A stretch of 41,824 nucleotides of DNA, taken from assembly GCA_903914175.1 (NCBI GenBank), contig CAIWNX010000151.1, positions 1-41,824 on the forward strand, written 5' to 3'. Every line of letters begins with the position of its first letter. The first letter of the stretch is position 1. The notes beneath the pieces are model-generated. The model saw only the letters and a program-made list of their open reading frames with translations, was not told where the DNA came from and made no database searches. This DNA is from an uncultured beta proteobacterium (GTDB lineage: Bacteria > Pseudomonadota > Gammaproteobacteria > Burkholderiales > Burkholderiaceae_C). Made by a program: the position numbers and the translations under genes. This document shows positions 2,254 to 29,652 of this stretch, one piece after another.

Positions 2254-2295
2254 CAGTCAGGTGGGTAGACCGGAGTCATGGCTCACCCTGAATCC

Positions 2296-2338
2296 GTCAC
2301 ATTGTCGTGACACTTTGGCGTCCGGGCGGCGCTGTAAT
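2296..2338 (+). promoter_or_regulatory. Possible promoter/operator before the STAS gene
   Basis: The gap between the HPt gene and the STAS gene holds an inverted repeat GTCAC-N6-GTGAC (2296-2311) and a -10-like TGTAAT (2333-2338). No good -35 hexamer sits at 16-18 bp spacing. The STAS-led genes may therefore have their own promoter. The evidence is weak. Confidence 0.25.
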
Positions 2339-2383
2339 AGGGGCATCCAAACATCCAACTGCGAACTTTTAATGGAAACAATG

Positions 2384-2722
2384 ATGGAACTCAAAGGAAT
2401 AATCGAAGGCAATGACGTACTGGTCATCGAACTGCGCGAGGACAACCTCGACGCCAGCAATGTGCGCGAGTTCAAGGACGCCGTGCAAGCCGTGATTCAT
2501 GAGCGCAAGCAAGTCGTGCTCGACATGTCGGGCGTCAAGTTTGTCGACAGCTCGGGCCTGGGTGCGCTGATCTCCTGCCTGCGCCTGCTCAACAGCCGAC
2601 GCGGGGACTTCAAGCTCTGCGGCATGTCAAAGACCGTGCGCGCCCTGTTCGAGCTGATGCGCATGCACCGGGTTTTCAATATCCACGACACGCGGCAAGA
2701 AGCGGTCAGTTCTTTTACCTGA
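2384..2722 (+). CDS. STAS-domain anti-sigma factor antagonist
   Basis: A 112-residue STAS protein of the SpoIIAA/RsbV type. The motif VDSSGLGALISCL carries the Ser that is phosphorylated by an RsbW-type kinase and dephosphorylated by a PP2C phosphatase. The unphosphorylated form binds the anti-sigma or kinase partner. Three in-frame ATGs occur at 2372, 2381 and 2384; 2384 is chosen because GGAA lies 6 bases upstream and the product then has the usual size. It is followed after 7 bases by the solute-binding protein gene, and two genes on lies a PP2C-HATPase protein that could both phosphorylate and dephosphorylate it. No sigma factor is encoded in the window, so the final target is unknown. 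Confidence 0.88.
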   Translation: MELKGIIEGNDVLVIELREDNLDASNVREFKDAVQAVIHERKQVVLDMSGVKFVDSSGLGALISCLRLLNSRRGDFKLCGMSKTVRALFELMRMHRVFNIHDTRQEAVSSFT

Positions 2723-2729
2723 GGTACCG

Positions 2730-3551
2730 ATGCAAGCCAACTGTCACAGGGCTGGCCTTGGTCAGACGCTGGCCGCCTTGCTGCTGGCGGTTGTGGCGCT
2801 GCTGGGCCAGACCAGCGCGCTGGCCGGCGCGGTGAGCGAGCGCGTCAAGAGCAGCGCCAGTGTGCGCGTTTGCATCTGGCCCGACTACTACGGCATCAGC
2901 CTGCGCGATCCGCGCACCCAGCAACTCAGCGGCATCGACATCGAACTCTCGGCGCAACTGGCCAGGGATCTGGGCGTGCGGCTGGCCTACGTCGATTCAT
3001 CCTTTGCCACGCTGATCGAAGACCTCGCCAGCGACCGCTGCGACGTCGCCATGTTTGCCGTCGGCATCACAGCGCAGCGCCAGCGCGCGCTGCGCTTCAC
3101 ACAGCCCTATCTGCAAAGCGATATTTATGGCGTGACCACGCGCAACAATCGCGTCGTCAAAAGCTGGGACGACATCGACAAGCCCGGCGTTCAGGTCGCG
3201 GTGCAGACCGGCACCTTCATGGAGCCGGTCATGGCCGCCTCGCTCAAGCAGGCAAAAATGCTCGTGATCCGACCACCGCAGACGCGCGAACAGGAGTTAG
3301 AGGCCGGACGCGTCGACGTCTTCATGACCGACTACCCCTACAGCCGGCGCCTGCTCGACCGGGTCGACTGGGCGCGCCTGGTGGCACCACCCAAACCCTT
3401 CAATCCGATTGCCTACGCCTACGCGGTGAAGCCGGGCGATGAAGAGTGGTTCAAGCAGATCGATCAGTTCGTGGCCCGGATCAAGCGCGATGGACGGCTT
3501 GAAACAGCGGCCAAAAATTCAGGCTTGACCGAGATCGTTGTCAGGAATTGA
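2730..3551 (+). CDS. Periplasmic solute-binding protein (family 3, amino-acid type)
   Basis: 273 residues with an N-terminal signal peptide: hydrophobic core LAALLLAVVALLG and a likely cleavage near ALA-G. The mature protein has the SBP_bac_3 layout: SVRVCIWPDYYG at the start, GIDIELSAQLARDLG, then DVAMFAVGITAQRQRALRFTQPY and a C-terminal lobe with VDVFMTDYPYSRRL. A GAGG Shine-Dalgarno lies just before ATG 2730. No ABC permease or ATPase gene is adjacent. Instead it sits between a STAS protein and a membrane phosphatase/kinase with a periplasmic Cache region, which suggests a sensory rather than a transport role (inference). Family assignment is firm; the ligand is unknown. Confidence 0.88.
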   Translation: MQANCHRAGLGQTLAALLLAVVALLGQTSALAGAVSERVKSSASVRVCIWPDYYGISLRDPRTQQLSGIDIELSAQLARDLGVRLAYVDSSFATLIEDLASDRCDVAMFAVGITAQRQRALRFTQPYLQSDIYGVTTRNNRVVKSWDDIDKPGVQVAVQTGTFMEPVMAASLKQAKMLVIRPPQTREQELEAGRVDVFMTDYPYSRRLLDRVDWARLVAPPKPFNPIAYAYAVKPGDEEWFKQIDQFVARIKRDGRLETAAKNSGLTEIVVRN

Positions 3552-3558
3552 GTACCCG

Positions 3559-10499: not shown

Positions 10500-13418
10500 A
10501 TGATCGTCGTCAGCGCCACTTTTGTCGCCGAGCCGCTGGCACGCCCGCTGGCCTTCTTGCTCGAAGAGCTGGGGCTGGCGCAGGCCATTGAATTCGCGCC
10601 CTACCACCAAGTATTTCAGGAACTGCTGAGCCCGGGCAGCGCCTTTGCGCGCAACCGCGGCGGCATCAATATCGCGCTGGTCCGTTTGGAAGACTATGTG
10701 CGGGAGGGCGGTGCCGACGCCTGTCAAGCCGTGGCCCGAATTGCTGACGAACTCGGCGCCGCGTTGCAGCGCTTTGTCAGCGGCGCCAGCGCCGAGTTGC
10801 TGCTGTGCCTGCTGGCGCCCTCGCCAACCGTGCCGGCTGAGCTTGCACGTGCGATAGCTGCCGCCAACGCCGCGCTGCAGGCGCGTCTGGCCGGACAAGC
10901 CAGTATTGTTCTTCTGACGCAAGACGAGATCGAACGCGTGGCCGGCGCCGAGCGCTTTGATGCGCAGCGCGACGCGCTGGCGCACATTCCGTTTTCCGAC
11001 AGCCACTTTGCCAGCCTGGCGCTGGCGCTGGCGCGTCGCATTCACGCCCTGCGCACCGCAGCAGCCAAGGTGCTGGTGCTCGACTGCGACAACACCTTGT
11101 GGCGCGGCGTGGTGGGCGAGGACGGCGTTGCCGGCATCAGCTTGAGCGCGCCCTATCTGGCCTTGCAGGAATTCGCGCTGGCGCAGCAGCGCAAGGGCGT
11201 GCTGCTGTGTCTGGCGAGCAAGAACAGCGAGGCCGATGTGCTCGATGTGCTGGCGCAGCGCAGCGAGATGCGTCTGCGCTCGACGGATGTGGTGGCGCAC
11301 CGCATCAATTGGTTGCCCAAGGCGGGCAATCTGCGCTCACTGGCCGCCGAATTGAACCTGGGTCTGGACTCGTTTGTCTTCATGGACGACAACCCGCTGG
11401 AGTGCGCCCAGATGCGCGCCGAATTGCCCGAGATGGTGACGCTGCAGGTTCCCGCTGAGGACGCGATTGCGCAGTGGCTTGATCACGTCTGGAACTTTGA
11501 CAAATTGGCGACTACTGACGAGGACGCCAAACGCACGCAGATGTACCGCGAAAATGCGGCACGCCGCACGCTGGAATCGGGTGCCAGCGACATCGGTGAA
11601 TTTCTGGCCGCGCTGGACTTGCAGATCGATATCGCCGCGCCGTCCGATGACGAATGGGAGCGCATCGCGCAGTTGACGCAGCGCACCAACCAGTTCAACT
11701 GCAGCACACGTCGACGCTCGGTGGCCGAACTCAAGGCCTTGCAGGCGCAGGGCGCGCAGCTGCTGCGGGTTCGGGTGCGGGACCGTTTTGGCGACTACGG
11801 CCTGGTCGGCGTCATGATCGCGCAAGCGCGTGGCACCGCGCTGGGCGTTGACAGCTTCATGCTGAGCTGCCGCGTGCTGGGACGTGGTGTTGAACACGCC
11901 ATGCTGCGCCACCTGGGCGAGCGCGCCAGCGCACTCGGACTGGCCTGCGTCGATCTGGAACTCATCAGCAGCGCACGCAACGAGCCAGCACGCGCGTTTG
12001 CCGACAGCGTTGCATCCGTCTGGGCACAGCCCGATGCGGATGGCTGCCACTACGCGATACCGCTGGCGCAGGCGCTGGCAATTGCGTACCAACCCGGCCA
12101 CGACCCCGAAGCGGTGACACAAGCGCGCCTGGGCGACGAAAGAAAAGTCAGCACGACCACCAACACCAGCGCCGGCACACCGGAGCGTTCGCAACGTTAC
12201 ACGCGCTTGAGCACAGTTCTGGTATCAGGCCAGGCCTTGCTGCGTGAAATCGATCGAATAGGGCGACTGCCCCGTGCCCTGCGCACCCCCGCCAGTGCCG
12301 CCACTTCGACCCTCGAATTGCGCCTGAAGGAACTCTGGGAGGAGGTGCTGGGCATCGACGGCCTGGGCGTTGAGGATGATTACTTCGCACTCGGCGGCAC
12401 CTCGCTGCAGTCGGTCAAACTGTTCGCACAAATCGAACAACGCTTTGACGTGCCACTGCGCCTGACCACGATCCTGGCCGCATCCACCGTGCGCGCGCTG
12501 GCGGCACTGATCGACCCGCATGCCGCCATGGCACGCAGCAGCGTGGTGGCGCTGCGCATGGGCGACAAAGGCAATCTTTTTCTGGTCCACGATGGTCTGG
12601 GTGAAACCCTGCTTTACGTGAATCTGGCGCGACGCCTGCCAACGCATCTGTCGGTCTTCGGTATCGAACCCCGCCGCTTGCCCGGCGTCGCTCTGGCGCA
12701 CGCCAGCATGGAAGACATGGCGGCCTATTACGTCGAGCAAATGCGCTCGGTCCAGCCGCGGGGTCCGTATCGGCTGGGCGGTATGTGTGCCGGTGGCGTG
12801 ATCGCTTACGCCATGGCAGCGCATCTGCGCGCGCTGGGCGAGCAGGTTGAAGTGGTAACGATTCTGGACGGCGCCACACCGCAAGCCGCCCAGCGCAGCG
12901 GCCGGATTGCCGCACAGCGTCTGGGGCGCGTGCGCGCGCTGCTCGGAGGTGCTGGTGCGCGCGGCATGTCGGCGCTGGCACTGGCCGTGTTGCGCAAAGT
13001 CGGCAACGCGCTGCATTACGAGTCGCGTGCCTGGCTCGCGCGCCAATCGGTGCAGTGGCGCTTTCGCCTGATGCAAAGTGTGCTGCGCCGTGGTCGCCCT
13101 TGGCCGGCCTGGCTGCCGGCTTTGAGCGTGGCGCAAATCTACTACGAGCTTGATGCGCGCTACCAGCCGCCGGCGCTGACCGATGTGCCGGTGCTGTTGC
13201 TGCGCGCCACGCAGGGCGAGGACGCCGACACGCCTTACAAGGCCATTTACCGCGACGACGATTTTGGCTGGGCGCGGGTGGCGGGCATGCTCACGCTGGC
13301 CGATGTTGCCGGCGGACACGCCAGCATGCTGCAGGACCATCACGTTGATTCACTCGCTGCCGTGCTGCTGGCGCAGTTGCCGAACTGGTCCGATCTACCC
13401 AAGGGGGGCATGGTATGA
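10500..13418 (+). CDS. FkbH-type HAD enzyme fused to acyl carrier protein and thioesterase
   Basis: 972 residues in three parts. Residues 1-520 are FkbH-like (HAD-IIIC): LVLDCDNTLWRGVVGEDG holds the DxDxT catalytic motif (about residue 190), FVFMDDNPLE is the third motif, and a GNAT-like segment covers about 370-515. Residues ~600-670 are a carrier protein, with Ser 635 in LGGTSLQSV as the phosphopantetheine site. Residues ~685-965 are an alpha/beta-hydrolase thioesterase, with GGMCAGG placing Cys 763 where Ser is usual, Asp 790 (ILDGATP) and His 940 (GGHASML). FkbH proteins take a glyceryl unit from 1,3-bisphosphoglycerate onto a carrier protein. Loading the fused ACP and releasing or transferring the acid through the TE is inferred. 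It overlaps the GT2 gene by ATGA, and a PPTase lies two genes on. Confidence 0.88.
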   Translation: MIVVSATFVAEPLARPLAFLLEELGLAQAIEFAPYHQVFQELLSPGSAFARNRGGINIALVRLEDYVREGGADACQAVARIADELGAALQRFVSGASAELLLCLLAPSPTVPAELARAIAAANAALQARLAGQASIVLLTQDEIERVAGAERFDAQRDALAHIPFSDSHFASLALALARRIHALRTAAAKVLVLDCDNTLWRGVVGEDGVAGISLSAPYLALQEFALAQQRKGVLLCLASKNSEADVLDVLAQRSEMRLRSTDVVAHRINWLPKAGNLRSLAAELNLGLDSFVFMDDNPLECAQMRAELPEMVTLQVPAEDAIAQWLDHVWNFDKLATTDEDAKRTQMYRENAARRTLESGASDIGEFLAALDLQIDIAAPSDDEWERIAQLTQRTNQFNCSTRRRSVAELKALQAQGAQLLRVRVRDRFGDYGLVGVMIAQARGTALGVDSFMLSCRVLGRGVEHAMLRHLGERASALGLACVDLELISSARNEPARAFADSVASVWAQPDADGCHYAIPLAQALAIAYQPGHDPEAVTQARLGDERKVSTTTNTSAGTPERSQRYTRLSTVLVSGQALLREIDRIGRLPRALRTPASAATSTLELRLKELWEEVLGIDGLGVEDDYFALGGTSLQSVKLFAQIEQRFDVPLRLTTILAASTVRALAALIDPHAAMARSSVVALRMGDKGNLFLVHDGLGETLLYVNLARRLPTHLSVFGIEPRRLPGVALAHASMEDMAAYYVEQMRSVQPRGPYRLGGMCAGGVIAYAMAAHLRALGEQVEVVTILDGATPQAAQRSGRIAAQRLGRVRALLGGAGARGMSALALAVLRKVGNALHYESRAWLARQSVQWRFRLMQSVLRRGRPWPAWLPALSVAQIYYELDARYQPPALTDVPVLLLRATQGEDADTPYKAIYRDDDFGWARVAGMLTLADVAGGHASMLQDHHVDSLAAVLLAQLPNWSDLPKGGMV

Positions 13419-14437
13419 GAGACACTCTTCATGCAAGCGCCGTGCGCCGAGTTGCGGTGGTGATCGTGAGCTATCGCTGTGCTGCCCTGACGGTCGATTG
13501 CCTGCGTTCATTGCAGACGGAAAGCGCGCATCCGGGCATTGCGCTCGGCGTAGTGGTGGTCGATAACGCATCCGGCGACCACGCCGAAATTGCTGCCGCC
13601 ATCGCGCGCGAGGGTTGGAGCAGTTGGGTGGAACTGGTCGAGGCGCCGCGCAACGGCGGCTTTGCCTACGGCAACAACCTGGGCTTCGCCCATGCCGCGC
13701 GCCGGTTCGATCCGCACTACCTGCACGTTCTCAATCCCGACACGCGCGTCAAGCCGGGCGCGGTGCGCGAATTGCTTGACTTTCTGGAGAAGACACCGGC
13801 GGCCGGCATTGCCGGCAGCAGTTTCGAAAATGGTGACGGCAGCGACTGGCCGATCGCCTTTCGCTTCGGCTCAATGCTCAGCGAGCTGGAGTCGGGCCTG
13901 CGCATCGGACTGGTCTCACGCCTGCTGCAACGCTGGCGCGTGGCACGCGTCATGGAAAAAAAGACGCAGGCCGTTGACTGGTGCGCTGGCGCCTCGATGA
14001 TGCTGCGCCGCTCGCTGCTCCAGACCATTGGTGGTATGGACGAGCGTTTCTTCCTGTATTTCGAGGAGGCCGAGTTCTGCTGGCGCGCGCGGCGTGCCGG
14101 CTTTCAGACCTGGTATGTGCCGGCCAGCCGGGTCATCCACATCGCCGGTCAGAGCACCAAGTTGACCGAACGTAACGCAGCGCCGAAACGCCTGCCGGAC
14201 TACTGGTTCGAATCCCGACGGCGCTACTTTCATATGACGCTGGGCCTGGCGCAGGCCTGTCTGACCGACTTGCTGACGCTGGCCGGTGGCGCTCTTGGCG
14301 AACTCAAACTGACCCTGCAAGGCCGGCGCGACGAGATTGTTCCGCACTACCTTGCCGATGTCTGGCGCCATAGCGTCCTAAGGCCAAAAAACCGCGCGCT
14401 GGCAGCACCATTGACGCCGCGGCTGGGAACGGCCTGA
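13415..14437 (+). CDS. Glycosyltransferase family 2 (rhamnosyltransferase-like)
   Basis: 340 residues with a GT-A fold: VAVVIVSYRCAALTVDCLRS at the N-terminus, VVVDNASGD, RNGGFAYGNNLG, the DxD-like VLNPDTRVKPG, then VDWCAGASMMLRRSLL and the acidic acceptor/catalytic region DERFFLYFEEAEFCWRARRAG. This pattern matches the WbbL/RfbF-type rhamnosyltransferases, though donor specificity cannot be read from sequence. The start overlaps the FkbH-ACP-TE stop (ATGA), and the PPTase starts 3 bases after its stop, so the three form one coupled unit. It is likely to add a sugar to the lipid-linked repeat unit at the cytosolic face. Confidence 0.92.
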   Translation: MRDTLHASAVRRVAVVIVSYRCAALTVDCLRSLQTESAHPGIALGVVVVDNASGDHAEIAAAIAREGWSSWVELVEAPRNGGFAYGNNLGFAHAARRFDPHYLHVLNPDTRVKPGAVRELLDFLEKTPAAGIAGSSFENGDGSDWPIAFRFGSMLSELESGLRIGLVSRLLQRWRVARVMEKKTQAVDWCAGASMMLRRSLLQTIGGMDERFFLYFEEAEFCWRARRAGFQTWYVPASRVIHIAGQSTKLTERNAAPKRLPDYWFESRRRYFHMTLGLAQACLTDLLTLAGGALGELKLTLQGRRDEIVPHYLADVWRHSVLRPKNRALAAPLTPRLGTA

Positions 14438-14440
14438 GCC

Positions 14441-15121
14441 GTGGACCTCAGCGCCGCGCTCTTGCTGCAACTCGGGTTGCCCGCCTTCCTGTCCATCAGC
14501 AGTGGGGCTTTGTTGGTGAACACCCCCGCGCTGCACGCGGCCGAACTGGCAGCGACGGCAGCGATGGCACCGCGGCGTCTGGCCGAGTTCGCGCAAGGGC
14601 GCTGGCATGCACGCAAGGCCTTGGCGCAATTCGGTGTCCTTGATGCCTGCCTGCCGATGGCAACGGATCGCGCACCGATTTGGCCGCAGGGGTTTGTTGG
14701 CAGCATCAGCCATGTGCCGCATGACCCGCAAACTGATCAGGCTGGATGGGTGATCGCGGTGGCGGCGCGCGCCAGTGATTGCGCTGGACTTGGCGTTGAC
14801 ATCGAACGCATTGCGCGCTTGCTGCCCGAACATTGGGGCTTATTTCTGAGCGCGCGTGAAATGGCATGGCTGATCGGGCGTCCGCTAGCGCAGCGCAACA
14901 CCCTGGCGCACAGCATCTGGAGCGCCAAGGAGGCGGCCATGAAGGCCGTGCGCCAGGCGCTCGATCCGCAGGATGTTGAAATTGAGATCGACACTGATGC
15001 GCGAACGTTTGTGGCCATCTGCCGCTACCCCGACAGCGCCCGTGGCCGGATCGATATCCGCCTCAGCGGCAGGCTCGCCAGTGCGCCCGGCTGGGTCGCG
15101 GCCCTGGCAATCCTGAGTTAA
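14441..15121 (+). CDS. 4'-phosphopantetheinyl transferase (Sfp/EntD type)
   Basis: 226 residues. Family motifs are clear: RRLAEFAQGRWHARKAL, GSISH, LGVDIE (Asp and Glu bind Mg) and WSAKEAAMKA. The enzyme moves phosphopantetheine from CoA to the active Ser of a carrier protein. The only carrier-protein domain in the window is in the FkbH-ACP-TE protein two genes upstream, so that is the expected substrate. The start is GTG 14441, three bases after the GT2 stop. A PPTase inside an exopolysaccharide locus is unusual and supports the view that the carrier-protein unit works on site. Confidence 0.92.
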   Translation: MDLSAALLLQLGLPAFLSISSGALLVNTPALHAAELAATAAMAPRRLAEFAQGRWHARKALAQFGVLDACLPMATDRAPIWPQGFVGSISHVPHDPQTDQAGWVIAVAARASDCAGLGVDIERIARLLPEHWGLFLSAREMAWLIGRPLAQRNTLAHSIWSAKEAAMKAVRQALDPQDVEIEIDTDARTFVAICRYPDSARGRIDIRLSGRLASAPGWVAALAILS

Positions 15122-18414: not shown

Positions 18415-18431
18415 GGGTTAAGACCTGTCAT

Positions 18432-18460
18432 TTGCATGAAACTGCCACAGTCTGGTAACA
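18432..18460 (+). promoter_or_regulatory. Weak candidate regulator site E before the GumC-like gene
   Basis: Three half-site-like words TTGCATG, TGCCACA and GGTAACA start at 18432, 18443 and 18454, an exact 11-bp period. The 11-mer TGCCACAGTCT (18443-18453) is identical to one in site D before rmlA. The same bases can be read as a weak promoter (TTGCAT, 18 bp, TAACAC). Confidence 0.3.
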
Positions 18461-18558
18461 CTCGCAGTCAGCCCACGCAGTGTAATAGACCGCACAGCGC
18501 AGCAACACAGCCGTTGCTTCACCGCCCTTCCCACTTCAACCAGGTCACGCCACACCCC

Positions 18559-20697
18559 ATGGATACCAGCCAACTGCCCGGACGCGGCATCAAGCCGCTG
18601 CTCAGTCTGCGCCGGCATTACCGCGTCAGTGCCTTTATCTGGCTGCTGGTGCTGCTGGCCGGCCTGCCGGTGGTCTGGATCAAGGGGCAGAGTTATTACG
18701 GCGTGGAGTCGGTGTTCCAGGTCTCGCCCAATTACATGAAAACGCTGGCTACCGACAAGGAATTGGAGTTGCAATCGAATTCGCAATACCGCGAGTTCGT
18801 CAACCACCTCTCCAGCACGGTTAAGCGCTACGACGTGCTGCAACGCGCCCTGAAGAAGCTGCGCGAGGCCCAGGTGGACGTTCAGCCCAAGGGTTTGAGC
18901 GAGCGCAAGTACATCGAGCAACTGCAAAAGTCGGTGACCGTCAAACCGGTCGCCGACACCTACATGGTGCGCATCGGTATGGAGGGCCCGAAAAAAGAGT
19001 TGCTTTCCGAGATCGTCAACGCGGTCACCACTGCCTTTCTGGAAACAACCAAAAGCGAGCAGATCTTTGGCTCCGTCGAGCGGCTGGAGATGCTGCAGGC
19101 CAACGCCGAGAAATTGCAAAACGAAATCGTGGACCTGGAAACGCAGCGGGTGCAACTGGCCGAGCGGCTCGGGCTGACGACCTTTGGTGACAACGCCATC
19201 AACCCCTACGACAGCATTCTGTTCCAGGCGCGCGACAAGTTCACCACGGCATCGATCGAGCGCGCCCATGCCGAAGCCACCTTGCAGGCGTTTTTGGCAC
19301 AGCGCGAAACGCCAACCTCGTTGGGGCGCTCGCTGATGGAAATGCGCCTGCAGGACACCGGGCTGCAGGCGCTGCGCAACGAAGTCGTCAAGCGCTCGGA
19401 AGAGCTCACGCGCACAACCGCCGGTCTGGAAGACAAACACCCGGCACGCAAGCCCTCGCTACTCGAATTTGAGGCCATCAACAAGCGCTTGCAGGCCAGC
19501 GAGTCTGAATTTGAAAAGGCCGCCTACGACAACGTCAAAACGCGCCTGGTCGCTTCCGTACGACAGACCAAACAGGTAGAAACCGAAATACAGGCAAGCC
19601 TGAAGAAGCTCGAGAGTCAGGCCGCCGACTACGCCCGCAACTTTCAGAAGGCGATGCGCTTCACCAGTGATATCCGCAAACGCGAACAGGAGCAAAAAGA
19701 GGTGCGCGACCGCCTCAACTTTCTGCAAAACGAAAGCGGTGCGATCGGCTTTGTGCGTTTGGTGACACCGGCGCTGCCGGCCGAGCTGCCAATGGGCATC
19801 GGCAAGACCAAATTGTTGCTGATCGTCCTTCTGCTGGCCACAGTACTGGCCCTGGGCGGCGCCGTTGCGCTGGACCTGGTGGACCGGCGCATTTATACCG
19901 TCAACGAAGCCGAACGCTTGATGGGCATCCCGGCGGCCGGCTGGCAGGTTCAGGGAGGCGATCGGTCAGAGCAGATCTTTGCCAAAGAGCAGACCCGGCG
20001 CTTTACCTCGACGCTGATACGCAACCGCACGCGCGCTGGCAAGAATGTTTTCTCGTTCACCTCGGTCAAGACGGTCGGGGCGGCGACTTCCGTGATTTTC
20101 GACACCGCCGCGGTACTGCGGCAGTTGGGCAATCGGGTGCTGCTGCTCGATGCCAACGGCTATTCGCCCTGCCCGGCATTCGATGCGCAACACAGTGGGC
20201 TGTCGGACTATCTGGCTGGCCATGTCGGGCACGACCAGATTGTGCAAACCATTTCGCATCAGGGCTCGCAGATCGAGGGCATCGGCTTTGGCACCGAACT
20301 GAACGCCGGCGTGCAGAGGCTCGACCTGCTCAAAGCCGCGGTGGACGCCTGGTCGCAAGAATACGATTTCGTGCTGATCGACCTGCCGCCGGTGCTGCTG
20401 AGCGCCGATGCGGAATTGCTGATCGACGCGCTGGGCCAGGTGTTTCTGGTGCTGGAGGCGCAGTCCATCAGCAAGGGCGAGGTCACTCGTGCCAAGCGTT
20501 TGCTGGAGAAACTCGATCCCGAAGCGATGGGCCTGTTCGTCAACAATGTTCCCGTGTTCCAGGGTGGCGGCTACATCAAGGAACTCATGCTCGAGACCCT
20601 GACCAAGGACAAATTCAGCCGCTTCATGAGCCTGTCCTGGGTGCGGCTGCAGATCGAGTTGCTGCGCGCGCAATGGGTGCAAAAGCGCAACAAGTAA
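18559..20697 (+). CDS. GumC/Wzc-type chain-length (PCP) protein with degenerate tyrosine-kinase domain
   Basis: About 712 residues. TM1 lies near residues 25-45 (VSAFIWLLVLLAGLPVVWI), followed by a long periplasmic coiled-coil region. A Pro-rich segment (PALPAELPMGIGK) leads into TM2 (LLLIVLLLATVLALGGAVAL), the usual PCP arrangement. The cytosolic part has the BY-kinase fold, with Walker A' at LLLDANGYSP and Walker B-like FVLIDLPPVL. However, the Walker A position reads SVKTVGAATS (about residues 502-511) with no GK[ST], and the C-terminus has no Tyr cluster. It probably controls chain length and export but is unlikely to be an active kinase. ATG 18559 is used because the frame upstream of it lies in the intergenic region. 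The polymerase gene starts directly after its stop. Confidence 0.88.
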   Translation: MDTSQLPGRGIKPLLSLRRHYRVSAFIWLLVLLAGLPVVWIKGQSYYGVESVFQVSPNYMKTLATDKELELQSNSQYREFVNHLSSTVKRYDVLQRALKKLREAQVDVQPKGLSERKYIEQLQKSVTVKPVADTYMVRIGMEGPKKELLSEIVNAVTTAFLETTKSEQIFGSVERLEMLQANAEKLQNEIVDLETQRVQLAERLGLTTFGDNAINPYDSILFQARDKFTTASIERAHAEATLQAFLAQRETPTSLGRSLMEMRLQDTGLQALRNEVVKRSEELTRTTAGLEDKHPARKPSLLEFEAINKRLQASESEFEKAAYDNVKTRLVASVRQTKQVETEIQASLKKLESQAADYARNFQKAMRFTSDIRKREQEQKEVRDRLNFLQNESGAIGFVRLVTPALPAELPMGIGKTKLLLIVLLLATVLALGGAVALDLVDRRIYTVNEAERLMGIPAAGWQVQGGDRSEQIFAKEQTRRFTSTLIRNRTRAGKNVFSFTSVKTVGAATSVIFDTAAVLRQLGNRVLLLDANGYSPCPAFDAQHSGLSDYLAGHVGHDQIVQTISHQGSQIEGIGFGTELNAGVQRLDLLKAAVDAWSQEYDFVLIDLPPVLLSADAELLIDALGQVFLVLEAQSISKGEVTRAKRLLEKLDPEAMGLFVNNVPVFQGGGYIKELMLETLTKDKFSRFMSLSWVRLQIELLRAQWVQKRNK

Positions 20698-22086
20698 ATG
20701 ACCGAGTACAGCGTCTTCGTTGCGATGCTGATCGCCATCGTGGTGCTCATCAAGAGCGACCTTGAGACCGCCTTCCTGCGCGTGTGGATTCCCTTCTTTC
20801 TGCTGATACCCTTCAATTTCTGGATTCACGTCCCGCTGGCAGCGGACTACAACTTCATGTCGGCGGCGATCTTCCCGCTGCTCTTTGTCCTGCTCAAGGA
20901 CAAGCTCGCCGAAATCCGTGTCGGCCCGATGGAGATACTTCTGCTGCTGTATGTGGTATTTCGGGTTGTCGTCGATGCCCTGAGCCGCGGCTACTCAGAT
21001 GCCCAACACTACGCGCACTACATGGTGAGCTCGGTCATCGGCCCCTATCTGCTGGCGCGCTACGTCATCAACAGCCGGCGCATGGACATCGAGACTTCGC
21101 GCCGTTTTGTACTGATGTTCCTGCTGCTGTTTCCGGTCTTTCTGTACGAAGCAAAGTTCTGGGTCAGCCCGATTTTCAAGCTGCTCTCGCCTCTGTTCCC
21201 GCATTCCTACAGTTCGGTGTCGATCCGCTGGGGCATTGCGCGCACCGCTGGCACGTTCGAGCATCCGATCCTGGCCTGCATCATGATCATCGCCGTCTAC
21301 CGCATGCACCGCTGGCTGTCCTGGCAAGGCATCTGGGAGCAAACGCAAAGCGGCTGGTTGGGCTGGTTTCAGAAGCAGTCCAGGCGCTTTCCGATTGCCT
21401 TCAAACACCAGATCTGCATCGTACTGATCGTGATGGCGCTGATGACCATTTCGCGTGGGCCCTGGATTGGCGCTTTTGCCGGCGCCATTCTGACCGCGGT
21501 CGGTAACGCCAAGGACCGCAAGAAGTGGCTCATCATCGTGGTGCTGATTTTTCTGGTCGGCGGCATCGCCGGTCAGGCAGCACTCGATGCCTACATCACG
21601 CCGAAAGAGGGTGAGGTCCTTAGTGGTGAGGCGCAGACCATGCTCTATCGAAAGATCATGATTGACCAGTACAAGGGCTTCCTGATGGAGAAGTTCTGGA
21701 CCGGCTGGGGTCTCACGACGGTGCCAAAAATTCGCGGCATGGAGTCGGTGGACAACGCCTTCTTCCTGATGGCGCTGCAGCATGGCGTGCTGGCGCCGAG
21801 CCTGTTTGCGATCATCTTTTTGTACGCCATCATTTCGCAGGTGAAATTCGGCCTGCAGGCGCCGCCGGGCGAGCCGCCGATTGGCTTTACTTTTTCCGGC
21901 ATCTACCTGGTGTGCTTTGTCGCCTTTTCCACGGTCTATATGGGATCGCAAACCGAGCCCATGCTGTTTCTGCTGCTGGGTTGGGGCGAGAGCATCAAGA
22001 ACCGCACGGAACGCATCACGTCAACCCATGGTGCAGCAACCGCAGCAATTGCCGTCAAGCCCGCTTTCCGGCGCGTGTTGTATTGA
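20698..22086 (+). CDS. Wzy/O-antigen-ligase-like polysaccharide polymerase
   Basis: 462 residues with about ten to twelve membrane segments. The segment MTISRGPWIGAFAGAI, followed by a large loop and ENF-like VDNAFFLMALQHGV, resembles the O-antigen ligase/polymerase family. The start codon abuts the stop of the GumC-like gene with no gap, so the polymerase and chain-length protein are made together. Expected role: joining repeat units in the periplasm. The last 32 bases overlap the convergent acyltransferase gene. A ligase role cannot be excluded, but the pairing with a PCP protein favours polymerase. Confidence 0.85.
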   Translation: MTEYSVFVAMLIAIVVLIKSDLETAFLRVWIPFFLLIPFNFWIHVPLAADYNFMSAAIFPLLFVLLKDKLAEIRVGPMEILLLLYVVFRVVVDALSRGYSDAQHYAHYMVSSVIGPYLLARYVINSRRMDIETSRRFVLMFLLLFPVFLYEAKFWVSPIFKLLSPLFPHSYSSVSIRWGIARTAGTFEHPILACIMIIAVYRMHRWLSWQGIWEQTQSGWLGWFQKQSRRFPIAFKHQICIVLIVMALMTISRGPWIGAFAGAILTAVGNAKDRKKWLIIVVLIFLVGGIAGQAALDAYITPKEGEVLSGEAQTMLYRKIMIDQYKGFLMEKFWTGWGLTTVPKIRGMESVDNAFFLMALQHGVLAPSLFAIIFLYAIISQVKFGLQAPPGEPPIGFTFSGIYLVCFVAFSTVYMGSQTEPMLFLLLGWGESIKNRTERITSTHGAATAAIAVKPAFRRVLY

Positions 22087-24283: not shown

Positions 24284-25669
24284 TTATTTGAAAATGACGC
24301 TCAAGCCGGTATCGAGCGCCCAGCCCGCCAGCATGCCCACGCCCAGCGCCGGCAACCAGACGCGCTCAGAGGGCCAGGTCAGCAGACCGTTGCGGTACTT
24401 GAAGAACAACGCCACCGGCCAACTGACAAACTGGCTTAGCACCACGGCCACGATCGCGCCGCGCTCACTGCCCCAGGCGTAACCAGCCGGCACCAGCAGG
24501 ACCAAACTCAGCGCGCGCAGCGCATTGCTGGCACTGACCCAGGCCGGGTGGCCTTTGGCAAACATGAGTTGCTCGACAACCTGGTGGCGAACCGCCAGCA
24601 TGCCCAGACCGAGCCACTGGAACATCCAGCCGGCCTGTTGGTAACGCGCGTCATAAAAAAAGTGAACCACCCAATGACCCGACATGAAAATGCCGCCGGC
24701 CATGACGCCCAGAAAGACGTCGGCCAATTGCTGGACACGGGTGTAGATGCGCGCTGCGTTCTGCGTGTCGCTGCGCAGGGATTCGCTCAGCGCCGAAAAA
24801 ATGACGTGGCCATTGATGCTGCTGTAAACCCCCATCAGCGCCATCATCAAGGTGCTGGCGATGGAGAAGATGCCGAAGCTGCTGGTGCTAAGGCTGGCGC
24901 CCAGGATCAGCTTTTCGCCGTTCGCGGCCAGAAAGCCGATGACTGATGAGACAAAAATCCATTTGCCAAAGCCGACAATTTCATGTGCGCTGGGACGGTC
25001 CCAACAGGGTCGGCAGTTCGGTCCCGGCAGATAGGCGTGGCTGAGCGCGGTCTTGGCGCCGGTCGCCACCAGCGTGCCCGCCAGCAGGCTCCAGACCGAA
25101 TGCGTTGTCAGTGCCAGGCTCAGGGTGACCAGAGTACCGAGCACTTGTGAAATGATTTCCAGCCGCGCCAGATAGGCCACCGCCAGTGCCCGTTGCGCGC
25201 CGGCCAGTTTCATGGATTCAAGACCTTGCAGCAAAGCGCACAGCGCAAACACCGCCATCATCGGCGGCAGCCTGGCGTCGGCGTAAACCGTGCCGAGCTG
25301 AAAATGGCCGGCCCCGGCACTTAAACGCAAGCCCAGTGCAATGACCAGCACGACCGCGCACAGCAGGACGCCGCGCAGCAGTTGCACGCTCCAGGCCGTG
25401 CCGAGAAATTTTGAATCGAGCCCGCGCTCGCTCTTGACCACGCTTTGCCAGACGCCCAGGTCCGAGAACATGACCAGCGCGAAATACAGCGTGTTGACGG
25501 CGGCCACCAGGCCAAAGGCTTCGGGTGCCAGCAGCCGGGTCAGGATCAGATTGCTCAAGAGGCGCAGCGCCTGCGACGAGATGTTGCCCCCCACCAGCCA
25601 GCCAGCCGCACGCAGCATGCGGCTGCGAAGCGTGGCCGGTGTGGCAGCGGCTAAGGTCACGGCGCTCAT
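24284..25669 (-). CDS. Wzx-type polysaccharide flippase (MOP superfamily)
   Basis: 461 residues with about 12-14 membrane segments. The N-terminus RSMLRAAGWLVGGNISSQALRLLSNLILTRLLAPEAFGLVAA is typical of lipopolysaccharide-translocating MOP proteins (RfbX/Wzx, WzxC-like). It should move the lipid-linked repeat unit across the inner membrane to the polymerase. Its start overlaps the stop of the glycosyltransferase gene upstream by ATGA. Together with Wzy, the GumC-like protein and the Wza-like protein, it makes the locus a Wzx/Wzy-dependent system. Confidence 0.92.
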   Translation of the reverse strand: MSAVTLAAATPATLRSRMLRAAGWLVGGNISSQALRLLSNLILTRLLAPEAFGLVAAVNTLYFALVMFSDLGVWQSVVKSERGLDSKFLGTAWSVQLLRGVLLCAVVLVIALGLRLSAGAGHFQLGTVYADARLPPMMAVFALCALLQGLESMKLAGAQRALAVAYLARLEIISQVLGTLVTLSLALTTHSVWSLLAGTLVATGAKTALSHAYLPGPNCRPCWDRPSAHEIVGFGKWIFVSSVIGFLAANGEKLILGASLSTSSFGIFSIASTLMMALMGVYSSINGHVIFSALSESLRSDTQNAARIYTRVQQLADVFLGVMAGGIFMSGHWVVHFFYDARYQQAGWMFQWLGLGMLAVRHQVVEQLMFAKGHPAWVSASNALRALSLVLLVPAGYAWGSERGAIVAVVLSQFVSWPVALFFKYRNGLLTWPSERVWLPALGVGMLAGWALDTGLSVIFK

Positions 25670-26895
25670 GCGGCTGCGCCGACGAAAGCAGAAAATGTAG
25701 CGCTGAGCTGGGCCACGTTGCGCCCGAGGTCAAAGTCGGCCAGCACCTTGGTGTGCGCGGCCTGTGCCAACGAGTGGCGCAATGCGGGTTCCTGAATCAA
25801 GCGCCGCAGTTGCGTCGTCAGACTGTCAACATCGCCGGGTGTGGCGAGCAAGCCGGTGCGCCCGTGTTCGATCAATTCGGGGATGCCGTTGACCGGCGTC
25901 GAAATACAGGGCACGCCGCAGGACATGGCCTCCATCAGCACCACCGGAATGCCTTCGGCCAGACTCGGCAACACAAAGATGTCGGCGTGGGCAAAATGCG
26001 CACGCACAGCCGCCTGGTTCAGGGAACCGGTGATGTGGATGCGCTCGCCCAGCGCCAGCTCGGCAATGGCGCGCTCAATGCGGCCACGATCCGGGCCGTC
26101 GCCGACCAGCGTCAGATTGAATTCAAGTCCTTCATCGCGCAACTGTGCGCACGCTTGCACCAGCAGCACCTGCGCCTTGGCCGACGAGAGTCGGCCCACA
26201 CACAGCAGTTCAACCGTGGCCTTGGCCGTCGCGCGTTCGGCGTAGCTGAACTGCGCCGGATCCACACCGAGGCGACAGACCTGCAGCTTGGCCCAATGAT
26301 CGGGCTGGCTGATGCGCATCAACTGGCCTTTGGCAAACTGGCTGATGCAGACCACGTCGTTGGCCTGCGCCATCTTGAGTGCCAGATGTTGACCCGGCAC
26401 ATCGTCAAACTCGTCGGGACCGTGGATGGTGTAGGACAGATGACAGCCGATCAAACGCTTGACCAGAACACCAACGGTGGCGCTGGCGTTACCGAAATGA
26501 ACGTGCAAAACCTGCAGCCTGCGCTGGCGCATCCAGCGCGCCACCAGGGCCGCTTCGGCGACATAGGCCAGACCGTAAAACCAGCTCCCACCCTTGCCCA
26601 GACGCAAGCCCAGGCGCAGTGTGTGATACAGCGTTGCGGGCGACTGCAAGCACCAGTACAACAGCGCCGCGAGCGCGCCACGCCAGCCTTGCGCCTTGAC
26701 AAAAAAGGTGTTCTCGGCTTCGCGCTTTTCATACGCTTCCATCGCTTGGGGTGCGCGGTCCGGCGGGTTGATTGATGCGGTGGAGATGCTGTGACCCAGC
26801 GCGCGCAGGCCCTGAATCTCGCGCAGGATAAAGGTGTGCGAAACCGCCGGGTAGCGGCTGACCAGGTAGGCCATGGGCGCGCAGGAAGATGTCAT
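25666..26895 (-). CDS. Glycosyltransferase family 4 (GT-B)
   Basis: 409 residues. It starts MTSSCAPMAYLVSRYPAVSHTFILREI, the pattern of colanic-acid/EPS family-4 transferases (WcaL-like). The C-terminal half has VELLCVGRLSSAKAQVLL and the EX7E donor motif LPSLAEGIPVVLMEAMSCGVPCI. Both ends overlap neighbours by ATGA (the acetyltransferase upstream and the flippase downstream), so translation is coupled. A second ATG seven codons in is a possible alternative start. Donor unknown. Confidence 0.92.
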   Translation of the reverse strand: MTSSCAPMAYLVSRYPAVSHTFILREIQGLRALGHSISTASINPPDRAPQAMEAYEKREAENTFFVKAQGWRGALAALLYWCLQSPATLYHTLRLGLRLGKGGSWFYGLAYVAEAALVARWMRQRRLQVLHVHFGNASATVGVLVKRLIGCHLSYTIHGPDEFDDVPGQHLALKMAQANDVVCISQFAKGQLMRISQPDHWAKLQVCRLGVDPAQFSYAERATAKATVELLCVGRLSSAKAQVLLVQACAQLRDEGLEFNLTLVGDGPDRGRIERAIAELALGERIHITGSLNQAAVRAHFAHADIFVLPSLAEGIPVVLMEAMSCGVPCISTPVNGIPELIEHGRTGLLATPGDVDSLTTQLRRLIQEPALRHSLAQAAHTKVLADFDLGRNVAQLSATFSAFVGAAA

Positions 26896-27524
26896 GAGGT
26901 TTCAACTTTCAAGCCGTCAACGGCCGCAGACGGGCACAGGATTCGGGCCGGAACGCCACCGACAATCTGCTGCACACCGATGGGTTTTGTCAGGACTGCG
27001 TTGGCGCCGACCACGCTGTTGGCGCCAATGCTGGCGCCCATCAGCACGCAGGCGCCGCGGCCAATCCAGACATTGGCGCCGATCTCGATCGGTGCGCTGA
27101 CATGGCCGCTGTCGCGGATCGAGGGTGCACCCTGTTTGTGATTGGCGTCGCGGATGCTGGCGTATTCACCGACCATGCAACCCTGACCCAAGTGCACGCG
27201 ATCAAAGGCGACGATGTGAACGCCACGCGAGAGCACCACGCCGTCGCCGATTGTGATGGCGCCGGCGCCTTGCGTTTCAAGGTAGACACCGGGATAGATC
27301 AGCGCACCGCGCCCGAATTGAATGTTGCGCGTGCCGTGCAGTTCAACATTGCCCATGATGACGTTGGAAGAATCGATGGGGTGTCCGGTGGCTTCCTGCA
27401 AACGTGCCAGGCTCCACAGCCGGCTCAAGCGCTCAAGGATCACACGTTGAAACCAGGCCAGGGGCGACAGTGCGGCCGCCATCATGGCTTTAGCCCCTGC
27501 AGTGCTGCGAGTGGACGGCCTCAT
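26892..27524 (-). CDS. Left-handed beta-helix (hexapeptide) acyltransferase, WcaF/WbbJ-like
   Basis: 210 residues. From about residue 50 it is built of hexapeptide repeats (GRGALIYPGVYLETQG, GDGVVLSRGVHIV, IEIGANVWIGRGACVLMGAS, IGANSVVGANAVLTKPI), ending GGVPARIL, the usual end of maltose/colanic-acid O-acetyltransferases. The active His is probably in RDANHKQG. It is a soluble acetyl-CoA-dependent sugar O-acetyltransferase. ATG 27524 overlaps the GT2 stop (ATGA); a longer frame upstream runs through the GT2 gene and is not used. It is the third acyl-transfer enzyme of the locus. Confidence 0.9.
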   Translation of the reverse strand: MRPSTRSTAGAKAMMAAALSPLAWFQRVILERLSRLWSLARLQEATGHPIDSSNVIMGNVELHGTRNIQFGRGALIYPGVYLETQGAGAITIGDGVVLSRGVHIVAFDRVHLGQGCMVGEYASIRDANHKQGAPSIRDSGHVSAPIEIGANVWIGRGACVLMGASIGANSVVGANAVLTKPIGVQQIVGGVPARILCPSAAVDGLKVETS

Positions 27525-28534
27525 TTTTTGTAGTCCACCAAGGCGATTTCGGCGTGCTGGCGCGCAGCCTGGCGCCACTTGAGTTGCCCGAACAGCGCCG
27601 GAATTTTCTGCAAGTGCACGTGCACGGCGTACTGCGCGCACAGCATCCATTGCCCCGGTGCCTTCCAGGCGCAACGCAAGGCGGTGCGCGCCAGGTAGAC
27701 AAAGGCCAGCGCCAGCATTGCCAACGCCAGCGCGGGCGCGGTCCAGAGGGCAAGCGAGAGCAACAGCGGCGCCGCCATGAACAGCAGGCCGTGGCGAAAG
27801 TCGCGTCGCGCTTCATGCTGCCACAGCCCATCGCCGCGCACACGCATACGCTGCGCCACCTCGGCGTAGGCGATACCGGAGCGGTAGGCGCGCAGCCAAT
27901 AAGCGCGCAGAGACGTAACGGCCAGGTCGTGACGCGTCATCGGTGCATCGATGTGCTCGATCTCCCAACCCGCAGCGCGCAGACGGGCACACAGTTCGGG
28001 CTCCTCACCGGCCTTCAGGCTCGGATCGAAACCATCGACCTGGGTCAGTGCGGCACGGCGCACCAGCACATCGCCGCCGAAGTAAAGCGTGCGCCCGGTG
28101 GGATAGACCCAGTCCAGGTCGAGCAGTTTGGTGTAGATCGACTGTTGCGGACGCAACTCGCGCCGATGACCCCAGACGGCACACAGTTTGGGATCAACCA
28201 GCGTGGACAGTGCACGGCGCACAAACTCGGGATGCAGTTCGGTGTCGCCGTCGAGAAACAGCACATACGCGCCACGCGCCGCTTGCCAGCCCAGGTTGCG
28301 CGCTTTGGCCGCGCAGGGGCTGGCGTCGTCGAGCACGATGACCTGCGCGCCCAGCGCCTGCGCACTGGCAACACTGGTGTCGCTGGAGCGCGAATCAACG
28401 TAGATCAGTTCATGCTGCGTCTGCCCCCAGTGCGATTGCTGCACCGACTGCAGGCAGCGTTGCAGACGCGCGCCTTCGTTGCGGCCAATCACGACCACCG
28501 AGACGTCGATCCGGGTGAGATTGTGCGTCTGCAT
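27521..28534 (-). CDS. Glycosyltransferase family 2
   Basis: 337 residues: GT-A core with VSVVVIGRNEGARLQRCLQS, IYVDSRSSDTSV, AKARNLGWQAARGAYVLFLDGDTELHPEF (DxD) and LKAGEEPELCARLRAAGWEI (ED acceptor motif). A C-terminal hydrophobic segment pair near residues 250-285 (LLFMAAPLLLSLALWTAPALALAMLALAFVYL) suggests membrane attachment. It starts directly after the stop of the wza-like gene with no gap and overlaps the acetyltransferase gene by ATGA. Possible role: an early membrane-proximal transfer step. No phosphoglycosyl transferase was found in the window. Confidence 0.92.
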   Translation of the reverse strand: MQTHNLTRIDVSVVVIGRNEGARLQRCLQSVQQSHWGQTQHELIYVDSRSSDTSVASAQALGAQVIVLDDASPCAAKARNLGWQAARGAYVLFLDGDTELHPEFVRRALSTLVDPKLCAVWGHRRELRPQQSIYTKLLDLDWVYPTGRTLYFGGDVLVRRAALTQVDGFDPSLKAGEEPELCARLRAAGWEIEHIDAPMTRHDLAVTSLRAYWLRAYRSGIAYAEVAQRMRVRGDGLWQHEARRDFRHGLLFMAAPLLLSLALWTAPALALAMLALAFVYLARTALRCAWKAPGQWMLCAQYAVHVHLQKIPALFGQLKWRQAARQHAEIALVDYKK

Positions 28535-29569
28535 CTACTTGAGCAAGGTGTTGATGGTCGTGCCGAAAGTCAGGACCGAAATAAAGGGCGAGAGCTGACG
28601 CACGAGATAGCCAAAATCTGCCACACCGCTTTTTGGAACGAAAACCACATCGCCGTCTTCGAGAGAGTAGTTGACCTTGCGCGTGACATCGACCAGGTCC
28701 TTGAAGGCAATGACTTCAACCTGTTGCGCGCCGGCGCGGTAAATGCCGATCTGCTCGGGCGCCGCGTCTTCACTGGGGCCGCCAGCTTGTGCCAGCACAT
28801 CGAGCAGCGTCATGCGCGGCGTCAGGCGGTAGGAGCCGGGCTTGGGCACGGCGCCCAGCACATAGACCGATGTATCGGAGGAATCAGGGATGAAGACGAT
28901 GTCGCCCTTTTTCATGCGCATGTTGTAGGCCGGGTCGCCGTTGAGCAGGGCTTTGAGGTCAACCCAGATCAGCTTGTCGCGCCCGCGCATGATGGCGCAG
29001 CGCGTCAGCGAGGCCTGCTTGTCCAGCAGCGGCATGGCGCCAGCGCTGGCCAGCACTTCAGCCAGGGTTGGCGGATGCGCGAACTTCTGCATGCCGGCGC
29101 GCTCGACGCGGCCCAGCACCGTGACCTGGTTCGATGTGTATTGATCGATCGCCAGGTTGGTAAAAGGCTGCGAGAAGTATTGATGCAGGCCTTTGTCGAT
29201 CACTGCCAGCGCGGCTTCGCGTGTGAGGTCGTTGACGAAAACATCGCCCAGCAGGGGAACGGTGATATTGCCATCGGGTCCGACCACATGCGTGCCGCTG
29301 ACCTCGGTGCGACCAAACACGCTGAGCTTGAGCACATCGCCGCTGCCGATGCGGTAAACCGGATTCACCGATTCTTCGAGCAGGGCCAGGTCTTCCTTGG
29401 ACAGCAGCGTGGCGGTAGCGGGTTTTTCGATGGGTTTGAAATTGGGGTTCGGGTTTGCCACGTCACTACCAGCGCGCAAGCCACCCGATCCGGCGCAGCC
29501 CGCCAACAATGCCGCGATGCACAGCAAAAGCAGACCGGCCAGGGAACGGGAAATGGATTCGGTTTTCAT
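28535..29569 (-). CDS. Wza/GumB-type polysaccharide export outer-membrane lipoprotein
   Basis: 344 residues. It has a lipoprotein signal with lipobox LLAGC, then the Poly_export domain (YRIGSGDVLKLSVFGRTEV, TVPLLGDVFVNDLTREAA) and SLBB domains (QVTVLGRVERAGMQ, VYVLGAVPKPGSYRLTPRMTLLDVLAQAGG). The C-terminal hydrophobic stretch PFISVLTFGTTINTLLK may be the outer-membrane helix. It forms the export channel with the GumC-like protein. ATG 29569 (MKTESIS) is chosen so that the signal peptide starts correctly; the frame extends 20 codons further. It leads a seven-gene operon and has a candidate regulator site 24-50 bases upstream. Confidence 0.93.
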   Translation of the reverse strand: MKTESISRSLAGLLLLCIAALLAGCAGSGGLRAGSDVANPNPNFKPIEKPATATLLSKEDLALLEESVNPVYRIGSGDVLKLSVFGRTEVSGTHVVGPDGNITVPLLGDVFVNDLTREAALAVIDKGLHQYFSQPFTNLAIDQYTSNQVTVLGRVERAGMQKFAHPPTLAEVLASAGAMPLLDKQASLTRCAIMRGRDKLIWVDLKALLNGDPAYNMRMKKGDIVFIPDSSDTSVYVLGAVPKPGSYRLTPRMTLLDVLAQAGGPSEDAAPEQIGIYRAGAQQVEVIAFKDLVDVTRKVNYSLEDGDVVFVPKSGVADFGYLVRQLSPFISVLTFGTTINTLLK

Positions 29570-29592
29570 GAGGCCTGATGCTAGTGGCCACA

Positions 29593-29619
29593 GGAAAAAC
29601 AGCGTGACAGAAGTGTGAA
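29593..29619 (-). promoter_or_regulatory. Candidate regulator site B before the wza-like operon
   Basis: On the minus strand TTCACAC-N4-GTCACGC gives TCAC words exactly 11 bp apart, followed by TTTTTCC. CTAGCAT follows at 29578-29584 on the plus coordinates. The AGTTCACACTT word is identical to site A before the FkbH-ACP-TE gene. Confidence 0.45.
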
Positions 29620-29652
29620 CTTGTCGCACCGGTTTGCGACCCGCACGCGATT

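Follow-up and report, generated by a model that had tools for sequence, protein, structure and literature searches.

The closest described relatives of the system considered here are biosynthetic assembly lines: in the cited passages, FkbH domains load glyceryl onto T domains of nonribosomal peptide synthetases (NRPSs; PMC8949500), and they are assigned the glyceryl-loading step, with 1,3-bisphosphoglycerate as substrate, in the tetronate and methoxymalonyl routes (PMC7489565). A 41,824-nt stretch of DNA from an uncultured freshwater beta proteobacterium (contig CAIWNX010000151.1; hereafter the window, to whose forward strand all coordinates refer) encodes an FkbH domain fused in a single chain to an acyl carrier protein (ACP) and a thioesterase (TE). 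The fusion gene is followed by genes for a GT2 glycosyltransferase (GT2a) and a 4'-phosphopantetheinyl transferase (PPTase), and all three lie in a Wzx/Wzy/Wza-type exopolysaccharide (EPS) locus with several glycosyltransferases, two membrane acyltransferases and sugar-nucleotide genes. The best reading of the sequences is that an assembly-line loading-and-release module has moved to glycan decoration. With a probability of about 0.5, the three genes would form a self-contained cassette that places D-glyceryl onto an EPS sugar added by the GT2.

The FkbH-ACP loading systems of polyketide synthases (PKSs) and NRPSs (tetronates, methoxymalonyl-ACP, vioprolide, cystomanamide) have the FkbH domain and the carrier in common with the window, and the FkbH tree groups the window protein with assembly-line modules. 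Unlike these systems, the window contains no ketosynthase (KS), condensation or FabH-like partner in the scans made, and its fusion ends directly in a thioesterase, is coupled to a GT2 and lies in an EPS locus. In the Dlt system for D-alanylation of teichoic acids, a carrier-bound small acyl group is moved to a surface polymer, as is proposed here; Dlt employs an adenylation enzyme together with a membrane O-acyltransferase, whereas the window cassette has an FkbH domain and a soluble Cys-thioesterase. FkbH chemistry would yield D-glyceryl, unlike the L-glycerate of gellan gum. Gellan nevertheless resembles the proposed product in carrying glycerate on an exopolysaccharide, L-configured as cited (PMC4432689, in the passage citing Kuo 1986); glyceryl is thus a known EPS substituent, and the window would offer a one-chain candidate route to such esters on bacterial polysaccharide, known from gellan since 1986. 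The terminal thioesterases with peptidyl carrier protein of AB3403, EntF, SulM and ObiF share carrier-TE sequence and fold with the window, and those of AB3403 (by alignment) and SulM and ObiF (cited passage of PMC11298585) share the Cys nucleophile; they end peptide assembly lines, whereas only a loading domain precedes the carrier-TE in the window. BF1531 of Bacteroides fragilis (3slr) matches in its HAD domain by sequence and in fold, and its solved part is without carrier or thioesterase. In Campylobacter jejuni the FkbH-domain gene cj1302 presumably has carrier and acyltransferase partners encoded by separate genes. As in the window, this gene lies in a glycan locus, that of the flagellum (PMC7099621), and the flagellar glycan of strain 11168 bears di-O-methylglyceric acid on pseudaminic acid (PMC3068675). 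Unlike in the window the genes are separate, and the cited passages of these papers do not link cj1302 to glyceric acid.

The single chain with FkbH, carrier and thioesterase that the original prediction had read from the sequence is confirmed by TIGR01686 and Pfam matches (Table 1). Its FkbH domain scores 295.1 bits against TIGR01686 (cut-off 146.65, E 5.8e-88). HAD residues D195, D197, T199, S240, K241, D296 and D297, which we take to be catalytic on the usual understanding of these motifs, are present in the translation, as is C457, and the catalytic residues of the DCDNT, SKN and DDN motifs are invariant across 11 aligned sequences. The thioesterase is of type I (PF00975), with an alpha/beta-hydrolase fold, an adjoining carrier and the triad C763-D790-H940; the triad, with Cys as nucleophile, is invariant in 10 of 10 aligned ACP-TE sequences, including those of Aquisphaera and Gloeothece and one adenylation (A)-ACP-TE protein. 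The PPTase is of Sfp type, with PF01648 and 4PPT_N matches and the motifs GVDIE and WSAKEA, presumably the GVDIE and WxxKEA motifs of that type. The motifs called intact in the original prediction are present, and so is the coupling that it described: the fusion and GT2a genes overlap in ATGA (13415-13418), and GT2a and PPTase genes are separated by 3 bases (TGA-GCC-GTG). Two points go beyond it, namely the extra N-terminal domain (residues 1-187) and the identity of the thioesterase nucleophile as Cys763 rather than Ser.

The fusion gene is real, intact, conserved and outside the usual context of its parts. The reading frame is not a chance one, because four relatives (L045-L048) align end to end at 67-71% identity and the ratio of nonsynonymous to synonymous substitution rates (dN/dS) is low. 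For the window against L046, L161 and L048 the ratio is 0.11-0.28 in four domains, rough values since dS (0.9-2.1) is near saturation; the closer pair L045/L046, with dS of 0.13-0.32, gives 0.04-0.26 in these domains. An AlphaFold2 model of the fusion (mean pLDDT 77.8, pTM 0.55) matched structures of AB3403, EntF, ObiF1 and SulM in a fold search, and BF1531 over 357 columns (TMt 0.75). The length of the latter match appears to cover more than the HAD part. Because BF1531 matches the model, stand-alone FkbH proteins of ~600 aa may share a related N-domain fold, in which case the difference in this domain would be one of sequence. The N-domain profile also picks up FkbH modules within multi-carrier PKS/NRPS-type proteins.

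The predicted placement in an EPS locus is supported by the Wzc, Wzy, Wzx, Wza and glycosyltransferase genes of the window. Among the 35 window proteins scanned, four of them without any Pfam match, no KS, condensation or adenylation Pfam family was found that would indicate a PKS or NRPS cluster, no ketosynthase-type family as in a tetronate glycerate-utilisation operon, no AMP-binding or MBOAT family as in a Dlt-type system, and no methyltransferase or acyl dehydrogenase family as in a methoxymalonyl-ACP route (the last looked for in these proteins and not in the rest of the genome). The absence of ketosynthase and adenylation domains, also part of the original prediction, extends to seven relatives (L045-L051), in which a simple motif scan found neither; L160-L164 were not scanned for these. 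The genome itself (96.9% complete, 5.3% contamination) has a single match to the fusion protein, two PP-binding matches (the fusion carrier and a 91-aa ACP on contig C8) and two PF01648 matches (the cassette PPTase and one on C8, ~10 kb from the 91-aa ACP). With only these matches in the whole genome, no other assembly line is seen for the cassette PPTase to serve, barring the missing part of the genome.

A contig scan of genomes gave 32 loci, seven of them with the fusion (L045-L051; loci are numbered L, genomes G), from Rhodoferax, Comamonadaceae and other Burkholderiales assemblies. L045-L048 align to the window fusion over residues 1 to 968-970; identity is 70% in L049, which is cut, 85% in the best segment of L050, which is broken, and 49% in L051. 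In L050 (10001-12938; G761:C76) the fusion is split into two frames between FkbH and carrier, which may be an assembly error. Genus and family searches added G752, G757, G759, G755 and G644, bringing the total to 13 distinct loci including the window, with G761, G748 and G584 being repeats of L050, L049 and L051 and counted once. GT2a is the next gene after the fusion in 13 of 13 loci, which are related and do not represent 13 independent events; in G644 only a 43-aa piece of GT2a precedes the contig end, and in G755 the fusion is cut over two contigs with GT2a on the second. The PPTase gene adjoins in 8 of the 11 testable loci (window, L045, L046, L047, L050, G759, G757, G755), L049 and G644 being excluded because their contigs end too early. 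Genes for Wzc and Wzy lie nearby in 7 of 13 (window, L046, L048, L050, G752, G759, G757). L051 has sugar-nucleotide genes nearby, and the remaining loci are short, except L047. For loci without annotation, genes were assigned by simple motifs and by their similarity to proteins of the window. The opposite pattern, in which the fusion would occur mainly beside PKS or NRPS genes, was not found; it is the FkbH domain alone that groups with PKS/NRPS-type modules.

Within the genus, the fusion is present in 7 of 89 genomes and some FkbH match in 13 (E <= 1e-50), while a window-type Wzy is present in 14, among them all seven with the fusion. The EPS locus is without FkbH, GT2a and PPTase genes in 3 of 3 congeners whose contigs span the site (G637, G754, G696), and no fusion was found elsewhere in these genomes at E <= 1e-50. 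They keep the order histidine kinase, response regulator, STAS, AT3, 189-aa protein, EpsU-type GT2, Wzc, Wzy and the rest. The cassette site itself (L206:14079-15370, L208, L209) is occupied by genes for a 169-172-aa hexapeptide transferase and a 247-252-aa protein, which looks like an exchange of decoration modules (Pfam was run for G637 alone). In these three and in G710 and G724, Wzx and a GT4 are instead separated by an additional GT2, which is 31-34% like GT2a; for G710, G724, G734 and G765, the cassette site lies beyond the contigs. In Planctomycetota, a plasmid of Aquisphaera giovannonii carries the fusion (46% identity) between GT2a and a second glycosyltransferase, and syntenic plasmids of Planctomyces sp. 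SH-PL62 (BLAST-checked) and Paludisphaera borealis (by annotation) are without it. Since three congeners have a similar EPS locus that lacks the block, and the fusion is found on one of three syntenic plasmids of planctomycetes, the cassette appears to behave as an optional block, and its absence from three otherwise similar EPS loci fits optional decoration.

In the proposed mechanism, the PPTase would convert the carrier to its holo form at Ser635. The FkbH domain would dephosphorylate 1,3-bisphosphoglycerate and load D-glyceryl on the carrier, Cys763 would take up the glyceryl as an acyl-enzyme, and the thioesterase would transfer it, at a hydroxyl or amine group, to one of the sugars of the lipid-linked repeat unit in the cytoplasm. 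The acceptor would most simply be the sugar added by the coupled GT2a, and the polymer so decorated would be exported by Wzx, Wzy and Wza. What can be read directly from the DNA are the domains and their intact residues, the order of the genes, the lack of other carrier and PPTase partners, and presence or absence in similar loci. The FkbH family points to glyceryl as the acyl group, the Cys nucleophile and the context suggest acyl transfer over hydrolysis, and the coupling to GT2 suggests the acceptor sugar. Replacement of Cys by Ser in the SulM thioesterase leads to rapid hydrolysis (cited passage of PMC11298585), so that Cys763 fits transfer better than hydrolysis.

The pairing of a carrier-TE with GT2a is also seen with other loaders. 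In the cyanobacterium Gloeothece verrucosa a condensation (C)-A-ACP-TE gene overlaps that of a GT2a relative (46%), and its carrier-TE is 37% identical to that of the window. A GT2a relative at E <= 1e-60 was found in 9 of 299 family genomes; a TE-ended protein directly precedes GT2a in the genome of the window and in G584, G511 and G571. The TE-ended protein of G504 and G511 is a KS-AT-KR-DH-ACP-TE protein by Pfam, preceded in G504 by a formyltransferase-adenylation-luciferase-like monooxygenase-carrier protein. On two Ruegeria plasmids, GT2a stands between an annotated type I PKS, which directly precedes it, and a formyltransferase-A-monooxygenase-carrier-type protein, with sugar-transferase genes near; in R. 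conchae a PPTase gene lies two genes further. We also note that this PKS/NRPS pair near GT2a, assigned by Pfam for G504 and partly so for G511 and Ruegeria, occurs in both alpha- and betaproteobacteria (L133 and L136 from Ruegeria; L183:6470-17759, L185, L186 and L189 from G504, G511 and G571). The PKS loci were found by searching with GT2a, the GT2a profile included the Gloeothece and Ruegeria sequences, whose scores are inflated by this, and Pfam scans of proteins from TE-ended loci were made for four only (two of L183, one each of L185 and L133). Quick trees separate the thioesterases into two groups: a cysteine group (GxCAGG) whose 16 rows all lie to one side of a branch with support 87, and a serine group (GGFSGGG) of five (support 99). 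Of the 47 TE matches not in the cysteine group, six rows are GT2a-linked (G571 twice), all of them from the serine group, and 0 of the other 41 were flagged with GT2a adjoining; these controls come mostly from ACP-TE searches, include near-copies and the second G571 TE (L189), and most have only ~1.5 kb of flank. Mapped on the GT2a tree, TE linkage switches 6 times, at least 4 of the switches being forced by starred branches; 27 of 500 shuffles gave a count as low, so that its clustering is weak.

Several observations weigh against decoration by a GT2a-linked thioesterase. No PPTase gene was found beside the cassette in 3 of the 11 testable loci (L048, G752, L051). The 22.6-kb contig of L047 has the usual block before the cassette, but the 8 kb after it (L047:14420-22624) are devoid of EPS genes and encode enoyl-CoA hydratase, sulfatase, GGDEF, MurB and PlsY-type proteins. 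The rml, GalE and 2OG genes of the window were rejected as suppliers of the acceptor sugar: G759 and G752 have the cassette, yet these genes are missing between their Wza and response-regulator genes. The Aquisphaera gene for GT2a is divided between two reading frames (L127:18874-19874) beside an open fusion gene, so that GT2a may be dispensable there. The TE-ended protein lies ~1.2 kb before the first GT2a in G504 and G411, with a 411-aa open reading frame (ORF) between in G504, and none was found near GT2a in G408, G501 and G391; GT2a relatives without a TE found nearby also occur in L129-L132 and L134. Finally, Cys cannot be taken as a mark of decoration, because the motif is found in six TE matches without GT2a (L016, L027, L028, L139, L140, L149) and in AB3403 (by alignment), and because Ser takes its place in the TEs linked to GT2a in G504, G411, G571 and both Ruegeria; L094, an A-ACP-TE protein of the same Cys group, has no GT2a on its 6.5-kb contig.

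The TE-free glycan loci with GT2a relatives are those of Allocoleopsis, Shinella, Planctomyces SH-PL62 and Paludisphaera, and GT2a was rejected as a thioesterase-only enzyme as relatives are found without one. These loci suggest that GT2a is in itself an ordinary glycosyltransferase of polysaccharide synthesis, one that has on repeated occasions come to lie beside a TE-ended assembly line. They also bear on a different role, in which the GT2 would glycosylate the carrier-bound glyceryl and the thioesterase would then transfer the glycosyl-glyceryl or release glycosylglycerate. In favour of this role are the overlap of fusion and GT2 genes and the finding that GT2a recurs beside assembly lines unrelated to each other and beside TEs of two unrelated groups; the TE-free loci speak against it, and the very different loaders in the pairing favour a sugar acceptor common to all. 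We regard it as unlikely.

The descent of the FkbH domain bears on whether the product stays with the polysaccharide. A quick tree of 105 rows, 80 of them different, places the window protein in an assembly-line group with an SH-aLRT of 100, whose 30 rows include duplicates. The group also holds Aquisphaera and FkbH domains embedded in larger proteins that bear carriers, from Paenibacillus, Cohnella, Komarekiella, Verrucomicrobia and other Burkholderiales; KS or A motifs occur in several of these proteins. The ~600-aa stand-alone FkbH proteins, some with flippase, glycosyltransferase or sugar-nucleotide neighbours, lie outside the group. Verrucomicrobial FkbH proteins at L052:2801-7087 and L053:9551-13333 adjoin a protein with an adenylation motif and are thioester-reductase-like by eye in their C-terminal part. 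The carrier-TE part of the fusion matches in 18 of 321 genomes of the class (E <= 1e-45); 21 of the 22 matches outside the genome of the window have ended by position 218 of the 377-position profile, and the remaining one extends to 346. Among plasmid records, 40 have a match to the fusion at E <= 1e-40, and in one, that of Aquisphaera, this match spans 80% or more; the four phage records with matches have FkbH-only or NRPS-only ones. An unannotated FkbH-type domain, 36% identical over residues 190-515, lies in a 75-kb phage record from human fecal samples (H103; MT835480.1:72088-73083).

This grouping with assembly-line modules would suit a small diffusible product (glycerate, a glycerate lactone or ester, or glycosylglycerate) whose EPS location is incidental, as would L047 with its cassette not followed by EPS genes; thioesterases of this family (PF00975 type) mostly release products. 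Such a product is improbable in view of the one EPS locus shared by most visible Burkholderiales relatives, the planctomycete and roseobacter glycan loci, and the Cys nucleophile, which disfavours plain hydrolysis in the one tested case, SulM (cited passage of PMC11298585). Decoration may also proceed as proposed with an acid other than D-glyceryl, either a different phosphorylated C3 acid or glyceryl that undergoes modification once loaded. Substrate choice is not readable from the sequence here, and a 2OG-Fe(II) oxygenase is encoded in the window and near some relatives (L219, Ruegeria conchae); loading FkbH domains, however, use 1,3-bisphosphoglycerate in the cited passages (PMC8949500, PMC7489565), and the Pfam scan found no oxidase or methyltransferase family in the three cassette genes, which leaves this a minor candidate. 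That the genes are relics or hitch-hikers from an NRPS or PKS cluster with no EPS function, as the broken copy in G761/L050 could suggest, is very improbable given dN/dS well under 1 across domains and the conserved overlap and spacing of the genes.

The reading of the three genes as a glyceryl-decoration cassette thus retains the compact decorating system of the original prediction in its context and anatomy (EPS placement, one other carrier in the genome, an optional block), with L047 standing against it. The parts were known already, and their arrangement as a glycan-decoration cassette is apparently undescribed in the literature searched; no description of the fusion, or of a thioesterase-GT2a neighbourhood that recurs with different loaders, was found in the open-access literature, which was the part covered. 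More tentatively, glycan decoration fed by assembly lines may form a class of its own, hitherto unrecognised, that recurs in Pseudomonadota, Cyanobacteriota and Planctomycetota and has its minimal form in the window. The class would have recruited two unrelated TE groups, and in it a terminal carrier-TE would serve as glycan acyltransferase with a dedicated GT2 and a swappable loader (FkbH, C-A, or PKS/NRPS with formyltransferase and luciferase-like monooxygenase). If such decoration takes place, parts of natural-product assembly lines serve the building of cell-surface polysaccharide, and the thioesterase is an acyl-transfer enzyme. Genome-mining tools would likely class PKS or NRPS genes beside polysaccharide genes as secondary metabolism.

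Table 1. Positions of the cassette genes, their domains and other EPS-locus features in the window
Feature	Position	Strand	Size or match
FkbH-ACP-TE fusion gene	10500-13418	+	ORF, 972 aa
N-terminal domain of fusion, residues 1-187	10500..11060	+	outside TIGR01686 match
FkbH domain (HAD-IIIC, glyceryl transferase/phosphatase type), residues 188-503	11061..12008	+	TIGR01686
Carrier domain, residues 608-671	12321..12512	+	PF00550 (PP-binding), GGTS635L
Phosphopantetheine serine Ser635 of carrier	12402-12404	+	
Thioesterase domain, residues 693-953	12576..13358	+	PF00975, E 2.5e-24
GT2 glycosyltransferase (GT2a)	13415-14437	+	340 aa; PF13641/PF00535
Sfp-like 4'-phosphopantetheinyl transferase	14441-15121	+	226 aa, GTG start; PF17837 (4PPT_N) and PF01648 (ACPS)
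Wzc-like chain-length/tyrosine-kinase protein and Wzy-type polymerase/ligase	18436..22086	+	kept in loci with and without cassette
Wzx-type flippase, glycosyltransferases, hexapeptide transferase, Wza-type exporter	24284..29629	-	
2OG-Fe(II) oxygenase	29653-30543		
Only SDR-type match in the scans, reads as sugar epimerase	32739-33764		

Upstream of the cassette, positions 3-6555 contain sensor kinase, response regulator, STAS and PAS-SpoIIE-type genes. The kinase, regulator and STAS genes accompany the EPS locus of relatives whether or not these have the cassette, and the SpoIIE-type gene is found at that place only in cassette-bearing relatives; these genes are possibly regulators of the EPS locus or the cassette. 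The window ends at 3-dehydroquinase, rpoA and rpsD genes. A 651-aa protein encoded on the minus strand (8371-10326), with no Pfam or NCBIfam match, is 71-77% conserved beside the fusion in several relatives and glycoside-hydrolase-like by eye. A 340-aa ORF on the same strand (18418-19440), with no family match, overlaps the Wzc gene and is taken as antisense to it; its apparent conservation would follow from the Wzc gene on the other strand.

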